Positions 3,150 to 15,058 of a stretch of 64,000 nt of DNA are shown here, one piece after another. The translations under genes were made by a program, and so were the position numbers. The notes below the pieces were generated by a model. It searched no databases. It had not been told where the DNA came from and was given only the letters and a program-made list of their open reading frames with translations. This DNA is from Armatimonadota bacterium (GTDB lineage Bacteria > Bacteroidota > Ignavibacteria > OLB7): positions 1-64,000 of the forward strand of contig JADZEY010000060.1 in NCBI GenBank assembly GCA_020850315.1, read 5' to 3'. How positions within the stretch are numbered: the first letter of the stretch is position 1; each line of letters starts with the position of its first letter.

Positions 3150-4817
3150 ATGATGAAGACCAGTTTCCATGCAATAACCATCGGCCAAGCTCTGCTTCTT
3201 TTGTTGCTGCTGACCACCGCCGCCCGGACCCAAGACTTGGAGAAAGTCGGAACAGAAAGCCCGATAAAAGTTAGCGGTTCGGTTGGCGCGCGCGGCGTGG
3301 CCTACGGCGCGGAAGGGATTGCCGAACGCCGCAAGCCGTTCGGCTACACCCTTACCGGGAACCTCAACTTCAATTTCTACGACCTTGAACTCCCCTTCTC
3401 CTTTGTCTATGGCGACCAGGAGCGGGGCTTCAGCCAGCCGTTCAACCAGTTTGGCGTTAGCCCCCGCTACGGGTGGGCAACCGCTCACCTTGGATACCGG
3501 AGCATGACCCTAAGCCAGTACACGCTGGCCGGACATCAGTTTTTGGGAGCGGGGATTGAGCTGAATCCAGGGAAATTCCGCTTGGCGTTTATGAACGGGC
3601 GGTTCAATCGGGCAGTGGAAGAGGATACGGCGGAAATTGGTGTTCAGGAGCCGGCCTACGAGCGGACGGGGTTTGCGGGAAAAATCGGGTTCGGCAGCGA
3701 TGAAAACTTCGTTGACCTGATTGCACTTAAAGCAAAAGATGACCCCGCCTCGCTGAAAAATCAGCCGATTGGCTCGGAAACACTCCCCGGCGAAAACCTT
3801 GTGCTTGGCGCGGCGGCCCGCATCACCCCGGCATCGGGACTGAGCTTCGATCTGGATTTTGGGGTGAGCGACTACACCAGGGATGTTCGTGCGGACACCA
3901 TTGAGGTGGCCAGCGAGATCAGCCAGCTGGGCGGCGTAATCCAGCCGCGCACCTCCACCGCGGTGTACACCGCCATGACGCTTGCGGCCAACTACAGCTT
4001 CAGCGGCGGCGGCGTGCGCGCAAGCTACAGCCGGGTTGCCCCCGACTACCGCTCGATGGGGGCCTACTACATGAGCAACGATCTGGAGAGCTTCACCATC
4101 GCCCCGAACTTCAGCGCGTTCGATAGCAAGCTGAACGTGAACGCCAGCTTCGGCTGGAGCCACGACAACGTGCAGGGGAAGAAGAACGCCACCACCACAC
4201 GGCTGACCCCAAGCCTTGATCTGAACTGGAGCCCCTCGGCGGAGTTCGGGGTGTTTGCGCAGATCAGCAGTTTGATAACCAGCCAAGCCGCCGGCAATCT
4301 TCCGCTGAACGACACCACCCTCATGGATCAGCAAACTCCATCGCTGATGATTAGCCCGCGCTACTCCACCGGCGACAGCACCATCGGCCACAGCATCACC
4401 CTGACGGCATTGCACACCCTGCTGAGCGATGCCAACAGCTTCACCAAAACGTTCACCGAATACACCACCACCAGTGCCGATGCCGCCTACACCCTGGCCT
4501 TCCCCGCCAACGGGCTTAGCCTAACCGCCACAATCGGGACCAGCCGGTTGCAGAACGTTGGCGGCGAATTCTACACCAGCGGAGCATCGCTAAGTGGATC
4601 GAAAGAAATGGGGACCACGCTGAACATGAGCGGGTCGGTGGGGTTGGCATTCCAGCCCGCCGGAACCGCCGCCAACGCCACGCTTGGCACAAACTGGCGG
4701 CCAGCCGAAGGGCACAACGTCGGGCTGAACATCGCCGTCGGCAACGCCCCAGCCGGAACCAACAACAACAGCTTTACCGAATACACAGGAACCCTCAGCT
4801 ATGGCTACAATTTCTGA
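3150..4817 (+). CDS. Secreted/outer-membrane beta-barrel protein of unknown function
   Basis: N-terminal signal peptide (ITIGQALLLLLLLTTAARTQ), alternating amphipathic strands, C-terminal aromatic residue (SYGYNF). Confidence 0.75.
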   Translation: MMKTSFHAITIGQALLLLLLLTTAARTQDLEKVGTESPIKVSGSVGARGVAYGAEGIAERRKPFGYTLTGNLNFNFYDLELPFSFVYGDQERGFSQPFNQFGVSPRYGWATAHLGYRSMTLSQYTLAGHQFLGAGIELNPGKFRLAFMNGRFNRAVEEDTAEIGVQEPAYERTGFAGKIGFGSDENFVDLIALKAKDDPASLKNQPIGSETLPGENLVLGAAARITPASGLSFDLDFGVSDYTRDVRADTIEVASEISQLGGVIQPRTSTAVYTAMTLAANYSFSGGGVRASYSRVAPDYRSMGAYYMSNDLESFTIAPNFSAFDSKLNVNASFGWSHDNVQGKKNATTTRLTPSLDLNWSPSAEFGVFAQISSLITSQAAGNLPLNDTTLMDQQTPSLMISPRYSTGDSTIGHSITLTALHTLLSDANSFTKTFTEYTTTSADAAYTLAFPANGLSLTATIGTSRLQNVGGEFYTSGASLSGSKEMGTTLNMSGSVGLAFQPAGTAANATLGTNWRPAEGHNVGLNIAVGNAPAGTNNNSFTEYTGTLSYGYNF

Positions 4818-4818
4818 G

Positions 4819-7800
4819 ATGATGAACACCAACTACTCAGCCCAGAATGCGAAAAGAATGGCTGCGTTGGCTTCTTCGCCAATCGCTCTTTTTCTCCTTC
4901 TGCTTTGCCTGCTTCCCGTTGCTGCCGTTGCCCAAAACGACGTGCAGGTGGCAACCCTTGTGAAGCCCCCGTACTCACCCTACTTGTCGGACTACGTCGG
5001 CTTCGACAACAAAATTGTGATTACCCTAACCAACACCACCAACGTTGCGCAGAACGTCCGGCTGGTGGGGCAGGTAAAGGGGAAAGGGATCACCGTCACC
5101 ATCCCGAACAGCTTCATCCCAGCCGTGCCAATCGCGCTTGGCCCCAAAGCGGTGAAGGTGCTGATGGGTTCGCAACTGAAGGAGTATCTGAACCCCGACG
5201 TGCTGCAATTCAGCGGCATCAGCAAGCAGGAAGTGGTGCAGGGGAACGGCTTGCCGGAAGGGGATTACTCCATCTGCATCCAAGCATTGGACTTCAACAG
5301 CGGCGCGGCAAAATCGCTTGCGGCCCCGTCCGGTTGCGCCAATTTCAAGATCACCCACTACGAGCCGCCAACGCTGCAACAACCGGCCTGCAACAGCAAC
5401 GTGATCCCCAAAAATCCACAAAGCCAGCTGTTCAGTTGGACCGCCCCGGCCGGCGCGCCAGCGTTCAACATGGAGTACGTTCTGAAGATTGTGGAGGTGA
5501 TCCCCGCCAACACCAACCCCAATCAAGCAATGAACGCGGCCCCCAATCCCCCCTTCTTCGAGAAAGTGGTTCAGGGGACCTCCTACCTGTACGGCCCCAA
5601 CGATCCCGCATTGCAGAACGGCACCAAGTACGCCGTTCGGGTGACAGCGCGGAACAAAGGGGAGAGCAAGGAACTCAACTTCAAGAACAACGGCCACAGC
5701 GTTGTCTGCGCGTTCACCTACGGCCAAGCCCAGGCCGACAACCAACAGCAGAATGATCCCAACAACGACCAGCCCAACGACGACCCAAACAATGACCCCA
5801 ACGACGTTGACGAAAACTACGCCCCCCCGTGCGCCACACTGAACTGCGCACCGCAACCGCTTGCGGCTTCCACACCAAGCAACAAGGTCTATCAGGTTGG
5901 TGATGAAATCCAGATTGGATACTTCACGCTGAAGCTGACAAGCCTGAGTTCGGCCAGCGCGGGGAACTTGAGCGGCGAGGGAACCATTGACGCGCCGATC
6001 TTCCGGGTGAAGCTGAAAGCAACCTTCACCGGGCTGAAAGTCAACCCCAGCAACAAGGTCTATTCCGGCAAAGCGATTGGGAGCTACGACCCCGGCGCGC
6101 AGGTGGATGAAGCGATGAAAAACTTCACGAACAACCTGGGGAACATCGCTGCCGAGAAAGTGAAAACCGTCAGCGACTTCGTGAAGAGCAACCAGAAATA
6201 CATCGAGAACTTCGCGAACGTTGACGCGCAAGGGCTGCCGTTTGGCTGGAAGAAGATGGTGAACAGCAACATCCAACTGGTGAACGTGGCATCGGTGGAG
6301 TTCGCCCCCGACGGCGCGCGGATGAACGCATTCATGGAGGTCCCAATCCCCGAAGCACAGAACAAAATCCTGGCGTTTGGGCAAAAAAATATCTGCTTCC
6401 ACCCCACCGGGCTTTCGGTGGATGGATTGCAGAAACTGACGATGCTTGGCAACGATTACACCTTCCCCTGGGGCGACAAAATCACCCTGACGCTGAAGGC
6501 CGCAAACGGCGACAAAGGGACCTTTGTGAAGTGGGATTGCGAAGGCTACAAGGCAATGCAGGTGGATGGATTCTTCACCATCAAAAGCCAACTGATTGAG
6601 AAAGCCAACGGCGGCGGCGACGTGAAAGCCAGCTTCCTGTTCAGCAACGTGGGGGCGTGGGGCGATCTGTTGGGCGAGGTGGCGATGGACTCCTTTGTGG
6701 TGAAAGGGACCAAGGGCCTCACCTTCAGCTTCAACAAAGTGGTGCTGGATTTCAGCGACACCCGCAACGCCCAGGGGATGGCCTTCCCCGCCAACTACGC
6801 CGGCGGAACCGGAAACGACTGGCGCGGATTCTACTTCAAGGAGATCAAAGCACGCCTGCCGAAATTCTTGAAGAAGGATGCGAAGCAGGTGGAGATAGCA
6901 CTTGCCAACACCCTTATCAACAAAACCGGGTTCACCGGAACGGCAACCGTCCAACCGGTGTTCGATATCAACAAGGGGAGCGTTGGCGGGTGGGGATTTT
7001 CGATGGAGAAATTCGAGCTGGCGTTCCTGAATAACGGCCTGACAAAAGGTGAATTCATCGGGAAGATCAAGCTCCCCATTGCCGAGACAGGAATCGGCTA
7101 CAAGTGCCTTCTTTCCTCCAACGGCCCCAACCTAAAAACCGACTTCCAAGTCACCACGCTCGACACGATTAACGTCGCCATGTGGGGTGCCAAGCTGAAG
7201 TTGCTGGACGGCTCGAACATCAGCATCACCGCCGTGAACGACGACGTTACCGTGAAAGCCGTGATGAGCGGAAGCCTGACGTTGGACAAAAAATTTGTGG
7301 AGTTGAAATCGGTCAGCATCAAGATTCCTGGGGTGCAGTTCGAAAATCTGACGGTCCAGAACAAACCGCCGTACATCACCGCAACGCTGTTCAAGTTTGC
7401 CAGCCCGCAGAAGTGGTTTGCTGGGTTTCCGGTCTCGATCAACCCGCAGGACGGCATCCAGCTGAAGACGCAGGGGGATCAAGTTGGGCTGCGGCTGTCG
7501 TTCCACATCGGTTTGGACGGCAACAACCAAAGCGCGATCAGCGGCGGAACCGCCTTCACCATTTGGGGAAAGAAGACCGAGCAGCAAGGGAAGCAAACAT
7601 GGATACCGGCAATGCCGACGCTGGAGGAGATCAGCATCAACGCCGACGTTGCTGCGGTTCACATGGATGGGAAGATCAATCTGTACAACGGGGATCCAAC
7701 GTTTGGCGAAGGGTTTCGCGGGGCAATCAACGTGGAGTTCAAGCCGCTGCTGAAGCTGTCGGCCACGGTGCAGTTCGGCAGCACAGCATACCAGAACAAC

Positions 7801-10770
7801 AACACCAGCTACCGCTACTGGTACGTTGACGCAATGGCTGTGATGGGCACGGGCATTCCGGTGTTCCCTGGCTTCGGCATCTACGGCTTTGGCGGCGGGG
7901 CCTACTACCACATGAAGCCGGAAGCCGCAACGCCAACGGCCGCAACGCTGGATGGCAACCCGAACCAGGCAAAAAATTTCGACCAAAACAGTGCGGGCAA
8001 AACCAGCAGCGGCGTGGTGTATAAACCCGACCCAAACATTGCGTTTGGATTCAAGGCAACGTTGGTGATGGGGACCATGCCGAAGCCGAACGCCTTCAAC
8101 GGCGATGTCACCATCGAAGCCAGCTTCTTCAACGGCGGCGGATTGAACGAGATAAGCCTGAGCGGCAACGGATATTTCTTCACCCCGCCAAACCCAAAAT
8201 CGCGCCCAGCGAAGGAGGCCGCAATGGTCTATGCTGGCGTATCGTTCAAGTACAGCAATGCCAAGAAGACATTCGATGGATTGTTGGAGTTAGCGATCAA
8301 CTTAAAGGCTGGGAACAAGAGCTTAATCAGCGGCGGCGGCCAGGCGGCAATGCACTTCAGTGCCGACAAATGGTTCATTAAAATCGGCGAGCCATCCAAC
8401 CGGATTAAGCTAAAAGTGCTGAATCTGTTGGAGGTGAACAGCTACCTGATGGTTGGCAAAAACAGCCTTCCGGGAATGCCGCCGTTGCCAACATCCCCCA
8501 TAAATTTCCAGCAGAAATTGCCCAGCTTCAACAGCAAGAACCCACGCAGCCCAAGCACCGAAACCGGAAGCGGGTTTGCCTTTGGCCAGCAGATCAGCGT
8601 CAACACCGGCAAGCTGAAGTTCCTGATCTTCTACGCCCAAATCGCCATTGATTTCGGCTACGACATCTCCATCCTGAACTACGACCAGGAGTGTGAGTAC
8701 AGCGATGGCAAAATGGGCTTCAACGGATGGTACGCCAACGGCCAGGTCTATGCCGGATTGGAGGCCTCGGTGGGGATTGACATCAACCTGTGGTTCATCA
8801 AGGCCCAGCTGGAAATCCTGAACGTTGGGGTCTATGCCGGCCTGAAAGCTGGGTTGCCAAACCCAACATGGCTGCAAGGGGAAGTCAGCGGCCACTACAG
8901 CCTGCTGAACGGATTGCTGAGCGGCCAATGCAACTTCAAATTCAAGTACGGCAACAAGTGCGACCTAAACCAGGGCGACCCGTTCGGCGGGGTGAAAGTG
9001 ATTAGCGAGGTGAACCCAAGCGGCAGCGATGTGAACGTCTTCAGCTATCCGGAAGCGGTCTATAACCTTCCGCTTGGCAAAGCAATGTCCATCCAAACAC
9101 CGGACCCCGACGACGACGAGAAGGTTATCACCACCACCTTCCGCTTTGGCCTGCGGAGCTTCGACGTGGTGAACACCAAGAACGGCGCGAAGGTGGCCGG
9201 CAGCACCTCGTTGCACAACAACGGCCTAACCACGCTCTTCTCCCCCGACGAGATGTTCAACGAGAAGACCAAGTACGAGGCCACCGTGAAGGTGTATGGT
9301 GAGAAGAAGATCAACGGCCAGTGGAAGATCATCGGGAAGAAGAACAACCCGAACCAGGAGCACAACGAAGTAGAGGAGCAGACCTTCACCACAGGTGAAG
9401 CACCGGAGACGTTTGTCAACAGCAACATCATCGCCAGCCGCCCGGGGCGGATGCACCGCTACTTTATGAAAGGGGAAACCAACGACGGGGTGATTGTCTT
9501 CAATCAATACCCCAGCAACATCCCGAACGCCAAGCCAAAGGAGGGGAACAAGAAGTACATCTTCCGCGCACGGTTCCAGGAAGTTGGCGGCGGAAGCACC
9601 GTGGTGGGGGAAACCGCGTTGCAGTGGAACCCCGGAGGGAAGCGCGTGGAGTTCGACCTCCCGAACACCTTGAAGAACGAGAAGATTTACATCATCCAGT
9701 TTATCCGCAAAAAAGTAAGCAACGGCGGCGGGGGATCGGAAAGCGACGCGGGCGAGGTAGCCAGCAGCAGCGAATCGAAGTACCTGGGGCAAGGGCAAAA
9801 GATTGACGTGCGGCGCAACCGGTTGCAGTCCATCAGGCTTGGGGATGATGAGTTCCTGGTCTATCAGCTTGCCTTCCGCACCAGCAGATTCAGCACGTTG
9901 GATGCCAAGATCAAAGATTACGTGATGCTTGGCCCGCCGCTAAATGCCACACGCCACGGCGGGAACTACAACAACACGTTGTACCAGAAATATGAGGGGA
10001 AGGAGGCGATGGACTGGTACGACCTGCACCAGATTGAGTACACGCAGGCTTCGGTCACCAAGTACATCGAGCCACCCGTGACGGTGAAGGCCGTGGATCG
10101 CGGCAAGGTTGGCAACAGCTACTACTGGATCAACATCCACGACCACTATCTGGATTTGATTTCCGGCAAACTGAAGGACCGGATCAAGTACGACTGGAAC
10201 AACCAGATTGACAACAAGGCCGTGCGTTCCTATCCCGCCACAGGGGCCTACCAGCCCGGAAGCCGGCTGACCAACGGGACCATCGTCACCGACCAAGCGT
10301 TCCCGGTTCGCGCGGCGGCCATCTACTACGACGGCACCGGCAACACCAGCAAGCTGACCAACGAGGAAATCAACGCCAGCTACTGGAAAGGGTTACCGCC
10401 CGAAAACAGCGGGCCGAACAACATGGTGAAAACCGGGCTGCAGAACACCCCCAACGCCGGGAAAAACGTGCAGCCGCCTGCCGACAAAAACTACTTGGTG
10501 GTCTGCTACGATGCCGCAACGGTGATGCAGATTGACCGCAAAAAAGTGGCCGAGGCACTGATGAACAAGTTCGGGCCAATCCTATCGGGGATGCCGGAGT
10601 ACGCAACGTTTGCCAAGTACAACAACCCGACCAACTGGTACTACGACGACAACGGCCCGAACCCGAACCTTGACAGCATGAACCTGAACAAAGGGACCGA
10701 TGTGAAAGTGGTCATCAGCTACGGCTACACAACCAAGAAGGATTTGGAGGACACGATCTCGCCGCCATAA
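4819..10770 (+). CDS. Giant (~1980 aa) secreted protein of unknown function
   Basis: Single uninterrupted ORF with signal peptide (ASSPIALFLLLLCLLPVAAVAQ), an Ig/FN3-like N-terminal region, an Asn/Asp-rich linker and a long beta-rich body. The likely start (4819 or 4822) overlaps or abuts the upstream stop (TGAGATGATG), suggesting translational coupling. Confidence 0.85.
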   Translation: MMNTNYSAQNAKRMAALASSPIALFLLLLCLLPVAAVAQNDVQVATLVKPPYSPYLSDYVGFDNKIVITLTNTTNVAQNVRLVGQVKGKGITVTIPNSFIPAVPIALGPKAVKVLMGSQLKEYLNPDVLQFSGISKQEVVQGNGLPEGDYSICIQALDFNSGAAKSLAAPSGCANFKITHYEPPTLQQPACNSNVIPKNPQSQLFSWTAPAGAPAFNMEYVLKIVEVIPANTNPNQAMNAAPNPPFFEKVVQGTSYLYGPNDPALQNGTKYAVRVTARNKGESKELNFKNNGHSVVCAFTYGQAQADNQQQNDPNNDQPNDDPNNDPNDVDENYAPPCATLNCAPQPLAASTPSNKVYQVGDEIQIGYFTLKLTSLSSASAGNLSGEGTIDAPIFRVKLKATFTGLKVNPSNKVYSGKAIGSYDPGAQVDEAMKNFTNNLGNIAAEKVKTVSDFVKSNQKYIENFANVDAQGLPFGWKKMVNSNIQLVNVASVEFAPDGARMNAFMEVPIPEAQNKILAFGQKNICFHPTGLSVDGLQKLTMLGNDYTFPWGDKITLTLKAANGDKGTFVKWDCEGYKAMQVDGFFTIKSQLIEKANGGGDVKASFLFSNVGAWGDLLGEVAMDSFVVKGTKGLTFSFNKVVLDFSDTRNAQGMAFPANYAGGTGNDWRGFYFKEIKARLPKFLKKDAKQVEIALANTLINKTGFTGTATVQPVFDINKGSVGGWGFSMEKFELAFLNNGLTKGEFIGKIKLPIAETGIGYKCLLSSNGPNLKTDFQVTTLDTINVAMWGAKLKLLDGSNISITAVNDDVTVKAVMSGSLTLDKKFVELKSVSIKIPGVQFENLTVQNKPPYITATLFKFASPQKWFAGFPVSINPQDGIQLKTQGDQVGLRLSFHIGLDGNNQSAISGGTAFTIWGKKTEQQGKQTWIPAMPTLEEISINADVAAVHMDGKINLYNGDPTFGEGFRGAINVEFKPLLKLSATVQFGSTAYQNNNTSYRYWYVDAMAVMGTGIPVFPGFGIYGFGGGAYYHMKPEAATPTAATLDGNPNQAKNFDQNSAGKTSSGVVYKPDPNIAFGFKATLVMGTMPKPNAFNGDVTIEASFFNGGGLNEISLSGNGYFFTPPNPKSRPAKEAAMVYAGVSFKYSNAKKTFDGLLELAINLKAGNKSLISGGGQAAMHFSADKWFIKIGEPSNRIKLKVLNLLEVNSYLMVGKNSLPGMPPLPTSPINFQQKLPSFNSKNPRSPSTETGSGFAFGQQISVNTGKLKFLIFYAQIAIDFGYDISILNYDQECEYSDGKMGFNGWYANGQVYAGLEASVGIDINLWFIKAQLEILNVGVYAGLKAGLPNPTWLQGEVSGHYSLLNGLLSGQCNFKFKYGNKCDLNQGDPFGGVKVISEVNPSGSDVNVFSYPEAVYNLPLGKAMSIQTPDPDDDEKVITTTFRFGLRSFDVVNTKNGAKVAGSTSLHNNGLTTLFSPDEMFNEKTKYEATVKVYGEKKINGQWKIIGKKNNPNQEHNEVEEQTFTTGEAPETFVNSNIIASRPGRMHRYFMKGETNDGVIVFNQYPSNIPNAKPKEGNKKYIFRARFQEVGGGSTVVGETALQWNPGGKRVEFDLPNTLKNEKIYIIQFIRKKVSNGGGGSESDAGEVASSSESKYLGQGQKIDVRRNRLQSIRLGDDEFLVYQLAFRTSRFSTLDAKIKDYVMLGPPLNATRHGGNYNNTLYQKYEGKEAMDWYDLHQIEYTQASVTKYIEPPVTVKAVDRGKVGNSYYWINIHDHYLDLISGKLKDRIKYDWNNQIDNKAVRSYPATGAYQPGSRLTNGTIVTDQAFPVRAAAIYYDGTGNTSKLTNEEINASYWKGLPPENSGPNNMVKTGLQNTPNAGKNVQPPADKNYLVVCYDAATVMQIDRKKVAEALMNKFGPILSGMPEYATFAKYNNPTNWYYDDNGPNPNLDSMNLNKGTDVKVVISYGYTTKKDLEDTISPP

Positions 10771-10781
10771 GCTGCACCGAT

Positions 10782-10812
10782 GCCGGGGCGTGGGATTCCG
10801 CCATGCCCCGGC
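10782..10812 (+). other. Intra-operon hairpin between the giant-protein and FN3-protein genes
   Basis: GCCGGGGCGTGG-GATTCCG-CCATGCCCCGGC: 12-bp stem (one G.T) with no T-tract, so probably not a classical terminator. Confidence 0.6.
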
Positions 10813-10896
10813 GATTGCAGCAGAACGAGAGAACGGGTGAGCAAGCATCATCGAAGCAACGCACAACAATCTTCCAAACAACCGTCCGAACAACCA

Positions 10897-13002
10897 ATGA
10901 AACGCCTGATTTATACACTTGCCATGCTGCTGCTTGCGGCAATCCCCACAGTATCGCAAACCACCGAAGGGAGCGATGCCAGCGAACCCCGCCCGAACCT
11001 GCGGCTGATTGCCCGCAGCTACGGCGATTCCGTTGTGTTGCGCTGGGGGACCACCAGCCACACCGCCTGGAAAGTTGCCGGGAACGCTGGCTACATCATC
11101 GAACGCTACGAATACGGCCCGCAGGGGAAGCTCACCAAAACGGTGCTGACCCCGCAACCGCTGAAGCCGCTGACGATTGACGAATGGAAGGCCCGCTACC
11201 AACCGGAAGACACGATTGCCGGCGCGGCGGTGCAGGCGCTGTACGGCAAGGCAATCCCGACATCGGAAGACCCGTTCGGCAGCATCTACGAAATCTACCT
11301 TCAGCAACGGAGCATGCACGGCATTGCACTGCTGCTTGCCGACATCGCGCCACGCCTTGCCGATGGGCTTGGACTGCGGTTTGTTGACCGCACGGTTGAT
11401 CCCCAAAAGACTTATCGCTACCGCATCTACTCCCTTGCCAACGACCCAGACCAACCGGTTGACACTGCCGACGTTGCCATCAGCGTAAGCCAGCGCGACG
11501 AACCAAAAAACGTCACCACGCTGACCGCCGAAGAGGGGGAGCAACTGGTGGTGCTGAAGTGGAATCGGCTGGAGCATCCAGAGCCGTTCAGCGGCTACTA
11601 TATCGAGCGTTCCACCGACGGCGGGCGCAGCTTCAGCCGCATCAACCGGATGCCGTTCACGCCGCTGCAGAAGGATGATTCATCACAAACATCGGATCGG
11701 CCAAACGAGGATATGACCGAGTACAAAGTGCGCTTGGAAGCGAACTACCAGCCGGTTGGATACCGTGTGGTTGGTGTTGATCCGTTTGGCGAGGTATCGC
11801 CGAACAGCAGTGTCATCACGGCAATGGGGCGCGACCGCACGCCGCCAAGCGCGCCGCAGATTCTGCCGCTGGAAATCGTTGACGGGCGTTCGATGAAAGT
11901 GGCGTGGCGGATGGATACGTTGGAGGGAGACCTGAAAGGCTTCGTGGTTGGGAAAAGCGAAGGGCCGGATGGTGAGTTCGAGGAGATCAGCGGATTGCTG
12001 GGAAGCGATGCCCGCAGCTACACCGACCTTGACGTTCGGGATCTTCCGCAACACTACTACGCAGTGGTGGCGATTGACACCGCCGGCAACCGCGTCAGTT
12101 CCGTTCCGCTGCTTGGCATTTTCCCCGACTCCACCGCCCCCGCAACGCCGCGCGGCCTTGCCGGAACGGTGGATAGCAACGGCGTTGTGCGGCTGCATTG
12201 GGATGCCAACCCCGAAAGCGACCTGAAAGGATACCGCGTGTTCTACGCCAACCAAGATGACCACGAGTACCAGCAACTGACTGGCGACCTCAGCGAGGAC
12301 ACCACCTTCACCGACACACTGACGTTGCAGACTTTGAGCGAGGAGATTTACTACAAGATCACCGCGTTGGATCAGAACTACAACCACTCAGAGTTCACCG
12401 CAACGCTCACGCTGAAGAAGCCCGATGTTGTTGCTCCATTTCCGCCATTTGTTAGCAACATCACGCCAACGGAGCGAAGCATCACCATCCAGTGGGCCGC
12501 CAGCATGACCGACGATGTGGTGGAGCACACGCTGTACCGCCGCGCCGAAGGTGAAAGCGATTGGAAGGCCATTGCCAGCACGAAGGATCGGGCAATCAAC
12601 AGCTTCAGCGATTCCACGGCAATTGCGGGAACGCTGTACGAGTACAGCCTTCAGGCAAGCGACGATGCGGGGCTGCGTTCGGAGCGTTCCAATGTTGTTA
12701 GCGGGCAATTGGTGGGGGCTTCGGGGCGCAGCGCGGTGCAGGGGGTGGTGGGCCAGTTCGACAAAGCGGGCAATCGGGTGGTGGTGCGGTGGGATGCGGC
12801 TGGCGAGGATACCGAGTACTACCTCTACAAAGCCATTGGCGATGCCCAGCCAGCACTGTACCGCTCGGTTGCTGGTGCAAGGGAGTTTGTTGATACGGAA
12901 GTGTTCCCCGGCAACACCTACCAGTATGCCGTCAAGGTTGTTGGCAGTGATGGAACGGAATCGGCGTTAGCCAGCACCGGAAAAATTGTGATCGGGAAGT
13001 AG
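10897..13002 (+). CDS. Fibronectin type III repeat protein, secreted
   Basis: Signal peptide MKRLIYTLAMLLLAAIPTVSQ. Repeated FN3-like modules (e.g. LKWNRLEHPEPFSGYYIERSTDGGRSFSRIN, LHWDANPESDLKGYRVFYANQDDHEYQQL). Confidence 0.8.
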   Translation: MKRLIYTLAMLLLAAIPTVSQTTEGSDASEPRPNLRLIARSYGDSVVLRWGTTSHTAWKVAGNAGYIIERYEYGPQGKLTKTVLTPQPLKPLTIDEWKARYQPEDTIAGAAVQALYGKAIPTSEDPFGSIYEIYLQQRSMHGIALLLADIAPRLADGLGLRFVDRTVDPQKTYRYRIYSLANDPDQPVDTADVAISVSQRDEPKNVTTLTAEEGEQLVVLKWNRLEHPEPFSGYYIERSTDGGRSFSRINRMPFTPLQKDDSSQTSDRPNEDMTEYKVRLEANYQPVGYRVVGVDPFGEVSPNSSVITAMGRDRTPPSAPQILPLEIVDGRSMKVAWRMDTLEGDLKGFVVGKSEGPDGEFEEISGLLGSDARSYTDLDVRDLPQHYYAVVAIDTAGNRVSSVPLLGIFPDSTAPATPRGLAGTVDSNGVVRLHWDANPESDLKGYRVFYANQDDHEYQQLTGDLSEDTTFTDTLTLQTLSEEIYYKITALDQNYNHSEFTATLTLKKPDVVAPFPPFVSNITPTERSITIQWAASMTDDVVEHTLYRRAEGESDWKAIASTKDRAINSFSDSTAIAGTLYEYSLQASDDAGLRSERSNVVSGQLVGASGRSAVQGVVGQFDKAGNRVVVRWDAAGEDTEYYLYKAIGDAQPALYRSVAGAREFVDTEVFPGNTYQYAVKVVGSDGTESALASTGKIVIGK

Positions 13003-13732: not shown

Positions 13733-15058
13733 TTAATCGCGCGTTTTCACTTTCCCCAGCAGATACTCGGCAATCTGTACTCCGTTTTTTGTCCCTGCGG
13801 TATTGGAGGAGCGGATGTGAATCCCGCCGTACAGGCGGCTCATGGCGGCTTCGTGGGCGGCGGCCATAAAATTGGGGAAGGTGCGTACTGGCATATTCAA
13901 GTACTCCTCGGTGTCGTCATCGAACGGGACAGCACCAAGCTGCTTTGTTAGCACCACCGCTGCCGCTGCCGAGATGGTGCTGTGCCCGCTGGAGTGGTCT
14001 GGGAAGGGGGGCGTTTGAATCAGCGGAGTCCATGTGGAATCCATGTAGCGGTTGATGTAGGTGATGGGCCGAATGGTGTTATGCGTGTACTTCTCCGTCC
14101 AGCAGCTAAGGAAGCCATCGGCGATTGCTAACGAGGCAAGGGCGTATGTTTCCAGCACCTCCATCATCCCACGCTGCTGTTTCACACAGACGATTTTGGC
14201 GATGTTCATCCAATGCCCAGCGGGGCTAATCTGGCGGGTCTTGAACGCCATGTGGCCAAAATGGAAGGAGTGGATCGGGTTGCAATCCCAGAATTTTGCG
14301 ATAAGGATCTGTTCTTCGGTAAGATTTTTCCCGATTTCCCACACCTCTTTCTCATCCTTATAAAACGCTGAGGCAGGATCCTTGCTGAAGGGGATTGGCG
14401 CATCGGGTGGCAGCTGGCGTGCGCTGGTCAGCACAAACGGGCGCACACGATTCCAGTATGGATCAACTGGGCGAAGAAAATCTGGAGGGGTTGGCTGCCA
14501 ATGCTCTTCCCCTTTGGGGAACTCATAATCGCCCATCGCTTGCACTTCACGGAAGCCATCTTTCCCAGACCATGCGATGATATGATCCCCAACTTTTTCG
14601 CCATACTTTACCGAAGCTGCAATCACTTCCTTGCTTACTCCCGCCTGCTTCAGATTCTCCAGATCGCCTTCATACCGGGCATCGCTGCGGTCGTAGAAAT
14701 AGAGCAATTTGCCAGCCACCCGATGGTAGGCTGCAATGGCCGCAACCCGCCAATCAATCTGCATTTTGGGTGCTTTTGGGGTGGCCGTTAATCCGTTCAG
14801 TTGGCCAGCAAAGGAGCGGAAGCCTGGATAGCCGGGCCGGGCGGCTTCGTAGGCAGCGATATTGCAGTAGGTATAGACCCGGCTGATGGTGCAGGGGGTG
14901 CGGATTTCATCCACCATTGCATCGGTCAAAGTCCAGATCCATTGGTGGATAAAACGGGCACCGTCCTTATCGTACGATGGCACCGAGGCATTGGCAGCAA
15001 CAGTCCAGCAGCTGATACACAGCGCAATGGCGGGCAGAAGAAGGGAAACTCGTCTCAT
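13733..15058 (-). CDS. Vanadium-dependent haloperoxidase / PAP2-superfamily protein, secreted
   Basis: Signal peptide MRRVSLLLPAIALCISCWTVAANA. PAP2/haloperoxidase-like motif PPFPDHSSGHSTISAAAAVVL, plus a downstream histidine region (AAAHEAAMSRLYGGIH). Confidence 0.85.
   Translation of the reverse strand: MRRVSLLLPAIALCISCWTVAANASVPSYDKDGARFIHQWIWTLTDAMVDEIRTPCTISRVYTYCNIAAYEAARPGYPGFRSFAGQLNGLTATPKAPKMQIDWRVAAIAAYHRVAGKLLYFYDRSDARYEGDLENLKQAGVSKEVIAASVKYGEKVGDHIIAWSGKDGFREVQAMGDYEFPKGEEHWQPTPPDFLRPVDPYWNRVRPFVLTSARQLPPDAPIPFSKDPASAFYKDEKEVWEIGKNLTEEQILIAKFWDCNPIHSFHFGHMAFKTRQISPAGHWMNIAKIVCVKQQRGMMEVLETYALASLAIADGFLSCWTEKYTHNTIRPITYINRYMDSTWTPLIQTPPFPDHSSGHSTISAAAAVVLTKQLGAVPFDDDTEEYLNMPVRTFPNFMAAAHEAAMSRLYGGIHIRSSNTAGTKNGVQIAEYLLGKVKTRD

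Follow-up and report, generated by a model that had tools for sequence, protein, structure and literature searches.

A barrel, giant-protein and FN3-protein operon of the Bacteroidota TANFOR class as a candidate outer-membrane display or delivery apparatus

In 2020, Jana, Salomon and Bosis (PMC7073777) described TANFOR as the N-terminus of polymorphic toxins of Bacteroidota. FN3-domain and T9SS-CTD genes are already reported there as enriched among the neighbours of these toxins, and their export is left open, with the T9SS proposed as the route. A giant substrate encoded next to its cognate outer-membrane barrel is known from SprB-SprF, among the T9SS type B substrate-shuttle pairs (PMC12618676). 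Large barrels of the MtrB and usher type, in which a wide barrel passes or sheathes a protein, offer a further comparison.

The locus analyzed here lies in a 64,000-nt stretch of contig JADZEY010000060.1 (GCA_020850315.1), hereafter the window, and consists of three neighbouring open frames on the + strand within 3150-13002. Their features are as follows:

3150-4817, + strand: frame 1, outer-membrane beta-barrel with putative signal peptide, 555 aa (AlphaFold2 model of ~25 strands; family found in the phylum)
4801-10770, + strand: frame 2, giant, whole open frame, 1989 aa
4819-10770, + strand: predicted giant secreted protein, ~1983 aa, in the order signal peptide, TANFOR, FN3, linker, body, variable C-tail
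4942-5298, + strand: TANFOR domain (TIGR02542), residues 48-166 counted from 4801
5392-5673, + strand: FN3-like domain after TANFOR, residues 198-291 (PF00041 E 0.03, sub-threshold)
5836-9480, + strand: conserved all-beta body, residues ~346-1560, ~1200 residues (homology and AlphaFold2)
9481-10767, + strand: C-tail, residues ~1561-1989, the least conserved part of the giant among orthologues
10780-13002, + strand: frame 3, FN3 protein, whole open frame, 740 aa
10897-13002, + strand: FN3-repeat partner, 701 aa, with its own conserved N-terminal region (FN3 and family profile)

The first-pass annotation had placed three same-strand genes with signal peptides at 3150-13002 and had regarded the barrel and giant genes as coupled. 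Both descriptions agree with our analysis: the frames are present, the N-termini of all three proteins look signal-peptide-like by eye, and a single base separates the barrel stop (TGA, 4815-4817) from the start codons ATG 4819 and ATG 4822 (TGA-G-ATG-ATG). This one-base spacing makes 4819 or 4822 the most likely start of the giant; its open frame stands, and its length is reduced from the 1989 aa first given to ~1983 aa. The FN3 frame is likewise present (10780-13002, 740 aa), with its start most likely at ATG 10897, ~126 bp past the giant stop, where homology in alignment A3 also begins; the resulting 701-aa protein would begin MKRLIYTLAMLLLAAIPTVSQ. All three frames are retained in a sister MAG (L092), whose giant is 91% identical, at dN/dS values of 0.13 for the barrel, 0.11 for the giant (0.05-0.16 throughout when taken segment by segment) and 0.14 for the FN3 protein. 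This rules out chance open frames and indicates that the three genes are real, constrained and under purifying selection.

The N-terminus of the giant matched TIGR02542 of NCBIfam with an E-value of 1.2e-7 and 31.8 bits over profile positions 4-129 of 145, below the curated cut-off of 67, and on this sub-cut-off score we assign it to TANFOR. The earlier statement that no function was recognisable is thereby superseded, as the class has been described (PMC7073777). Like the TANFOR polymorphic toxins as portrayed there, the giant is a large, apparently secreted protein of Bacteroidota in which TANFOR is followed by FN3. At the residues corresponding to the FN3-like domain, paralogue C138 has above-threshold fn3-type matches, unlike the window giant itself. 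Another paralogous giant (L026:6890-17131; 3413 aa) contains at least six tandem FN3-like units, compared to one in the window giant.

The resemblance ends further along the protein, where the all-beta body and the tail occupy the place of a toxin domain. The tail is homologous among orthologues, at 25-49% identity in L093-L098 versus 50-76% for TANFOR, FN3 and body, and past residue ~1560 BLAST returned no match to own-genome paralogues. Neither Pfam nor NCBIfam revealed a toxin model in the giant, its C-terminal tip included, or in the FN3 protein. A recognised toxin domain thus appears to be absent from the giant, and its tail could still adopt an unfamiliar toxin fold. There is no immunity gene downstream either, the giant being followed by the FN3 partner and then by a 121-aa frame. 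Since TANFOR is found and the toxin and immunity features are not, we dropped the option of filing the window giant as a TANFOR toxin. In the sections consulted, the account of these toxins (PMC7073777) mentions neither the dedicated barrel nor the body protein.

Toxins were encountered in relatives of the locus. In Parachryseolinea silvisoli and Ohtaekwangia koreensis, a TANFOR gene lies between the barrel and body genes and ends, respectively, in a C-terminal AHH nuclease (E 2.9e-6) and in an NS_2 endonuclease (Endonuclea_NS_2, E 2.6e-12). These nuclease-bearing proteins, with 39.7 and 44.7 bits, also fall under the TIGR02542 cut-off. After each of them comes a small gene with no family matches, placed where an immunity gene would lie. 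Marivirga sericea has the same layout, with a TANFOR tip of no recognised family. The body of the two nuclease-bearing loci is a separate gene, split off at a residue matching the window giant. More generally, the window giant and its relatives combine TANFOR and body in a single protein, the TANFOR and body genes are separate in Cytophagales and Chitinophaga, and the body homologue is a gene of its own (~1500 aa) in Flavobacterium, Chitinophaga and Cytophagales. TANFOR-only frames hold body-profile positions 5-97 and body-only frames mostly start at 87-114, which indicates that the split falls at a matching place across loci. Because Cytophagales relatives encode the TANFOR module on its own, with a nuclease toxin at its end, the genes for barrel, body and FN3 protein probably encode an apparatus for TANFOR proteins that holds or delivers nuclease toxins at the cell surface; this apparatus would be undescribed, and no paper on the barrel/body/FN3 set was found in open-access PMC. 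The window giant itself most likely works as the structural side of such an apparatus.

Gene-order co-conservation across Bacteroidota was analyzed in 148 other genomes (149 with the genome of the window). The TANFOR module, searched with a profile from own-genome paralogues (A2), was detected in 35 of the 149, own genome included. When strong matches only are counted, the barrel and TANFOR share an identical set of 31 of the 148 other genomes, and all 25 genomes with the FN3 partner also have the barrel, these being raw genome counts, with hypergeometric values, which ignore relatedness, not used as probabilities. A same-strand TANFOR gene lies within 20 kb of 42 of 46 barrels (37 within 5 kb), and in barrel-TANFOR pairs within 2 kb TANFOR is downstream in 32 of 34. 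The similarity among FN3 partners could partly reflect common FN3 repeats; their family profile takes in the N-terminal non-repeat region.

A contig scan was run with the body as query, the barrel alignment (A5) being too diverse, and yielded 80 named loci spanning Ignavibacteria, Kryptonium, Lewinella, Flavobacterium, Chitinophaga and Cytophagales. In 64 of these the body gene is followed downstream by the FN3 partner; in 11 of the other 16 the body frame is truncated at a contig end. A same-strand barrel is present in 47, many of the rest being contig ends. Within the stretch examined, about a dozen Flavobacterium-type loci have body and FN3 genes with no barrel, and some of the Flavobacterium loci have neither barrel nor TANFOR. 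The barrel comes first in some loci and last in others, and this variation in gene order favours a functional link rather than simple inertia. Distribution of the operon is patchy (31 of 148 genomes), and it occurs in multiple copies; the own genome contains several paralogous modules, with counterparts in the genome of a sister species of the same genus. The check for co-conserved neighbours proposed with the first-pass annotation was thus strongly positive, and the genes for barrel, giant and FN3 protein are best read as a single conserved operon belonging to the TANFOR class of Bacteroidota.

Weak barrel matches of 745-915 aa represent a separate family and were left out of the member counts. 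Larger barrels of 794-915 aa, with weak but clear matches to the barrel profile and ~300 N-terminal residues preceding the barrel part, were found at L081, L082, L083, L084, L086 and L087. They belong to a repeated cassette made up, in this order, of a 356-399-aa secreted protein, a FecR-like protein of ~240 aa, the barrel and a CHASE2-like membrane protein of ~720-920 aa. FecR and CHASE2 were assigned by eye; the cassette may be a module for envelope sensing.

The window barrel matched no family in Pfam or NCBIfam at E-values up to 1, and its profile found no relative among PDB sequences. This supports the earlier view of a dedicated family, one with no Pfam or NCBIfam model; the segment singled out at the time is among its best-conserved stretches. 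The AlphaFold2 model is confident (mean pLDDT 88.9, pTM 0.78). Its best PDB match by Foldseek was MtrB (6r2q_B, E 5e-10, TMq 0.52), followed by weaker matches to TonB receptors and by FimD/PapC and LptD. With TMq at most 0.52, we read these matches as indicating a wide barrel rather than homology. The window barrel thus resembles the MtrB and usher-type barrels in predicted shape; it differs from them in that no PDB chain is similar to it in sequence and that we found no usher or cytochrome partner. The combination of a barrel and a secreted, FN3-rich partner in Bacteroidota might also suggest a SusC/SusD-like pair for nutrient uptake, as might the fact that the weaker fold matches include TonB receptors. 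However, TonB-dependent receptor, plug and SusD models of Pfam and NCBIfam were all unmatched, and the relatives are linked to toxins; we consider this reading very improbable and dropped it for want of a TonB or SusD match.

The N-terminus of an outer-membrane barrel lies on the periplasmic side. In genome G141, TANFOR and the barrel form one frame of 947 aa, and an order-wide search found this arrangement in about ten genomes of the same order. These natural fusions, which place TANFOR at the barrel N-terminus, point to direct contact between the two. They would also suit a periplasmic giant that joins the barrel in bridging the envelope or in forming a lipid or glycan conduit, LptD- or TamB-like in use. 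The AlphaFold2 model of the body is all beta (pLDDT 82.8, pTM 0.52), and its Foldseek matches were to the long beta-sheet proteins LptD and apolipoprotein B, as such a conduit would have it. However, the TM-scores to these two were about 0.1, which means no shared fold, and the likeness was set aside as uninformative. Among the listed PDB matches of E <= 0.001 none had a TM-score above 0.2, and neither the giant sequence nor its body profile found a match among PDB sequences, so that the body appears to have no match to a known fold. Further, TANFOR relatives that carry toxin tips within these operons are ill-suited to a housekeeping conduit, as is the patchy, multicopy occurrence of the operon, and we judge the conduit improbable.

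The genome of the window is that of a heavy T9SS user, with SprA (909.8 bits) and about 150 T9SS CTD matches in 4.2 Mb (e.g., G000:C26:4364-4591 and G000:C60:41599-41808). SprA is also present in all 31 operon-bearing genomes, and for this reason transport through the barrel is indistinguishable from T9SS export. The giant might accordingly leave the cell through SprA, with the barrel acting as a PorP/SprF- or PorV-like shuttle that collects the exported protein and keeps it at the surface, as for type B substrates. In line with this, CTD-like protein ends were seen by eye beside body and FN3 genes in Cytophagales relatives, TANFOR toxins have been proposed as T9SS substrates (PMC7073777), and the window shares with SprB-SprF the giant surface-protein gene adjoining a cognate barrel gene (PMC12618676). 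Nevertheless, the three window proteins gave no match to the CTD models TIGR04183 and TIGR04131 at E-values up to 1, none of the own-genome TIGR04183 matches falls within 3150-13002, and the barrel, with ~25 strands, matched neither PorP/SprF nor PorV families (Pfam and NCBIfam, E up to 1 for PorP/SprF). The barrel gene also comes first, which differs from the SprB-SprF-type pairs. Moreover, the SprA-less genomes among those listed nearly all belong to one family, which makes the nesting of operon genomes among SprA-bearing ones weak evidence. We regard the SprA route as possible yet rather unlikely. Similarly doubtful is an undescribed secretion or display system of barrel, body and FN3 protein that would recognise the N-terminal TANFOR rather than a C-terminal T9SS signal and would serve both structural giants and interbacterial nuclease toxins.

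We give an even chance to the broader reading, in which a conserved TANFOR-class apparatus of the outer membrane would serve display or delivery, with a toxin-less version in the window; co-inheritance and fusions are observed, and transport is inferred from them. Under this display or delivery model, Sec would export the barrel, the giant and the FN3 protein, and the barrel would insert into the outer membrane. The giant would dock onto it through its N-terminal TANFOR-FN3 module, the all-beta body and variable tail would be exposed as a surface scaffold or tip, and the FN3 protein would have an accessory role. Given its TANFOR-body fusion, the copy in the window may be a structural version, such as a surface scaffold, an adhesin or a base platform, and we infer, as had been proposed at first pass, a co-exported surface assembly of all three proteins. 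In relatives, barrel, body and FN3 proteins would display or deliver TANFOR cargo. Barrel, body and FN3 protein are hereby named as a specific, phylum-wide partner set for TANFOR; if the model is correct, TANFOR toxins, whose export route was left open in 2020 (PMC7073777), would gain the partner in the outer membrane that they have lacked so far, and perhaps an export signal of a new kind.

Two further genes, on the - strand outside the module, were named by eye. The 196-aa frame at 54-644 resembles the N-terminal half of a DNA cytosine methyltransferase (FTFIDLFAGIGGFR, GFPCQPFS) and is perhaps truncated. The gene at 13733-15058 encodes a secreted phosphatase-like protein (PAP2/haloperoxidase-like), and a similar gene is found elsewhere in the genome (L034:12754-14268).
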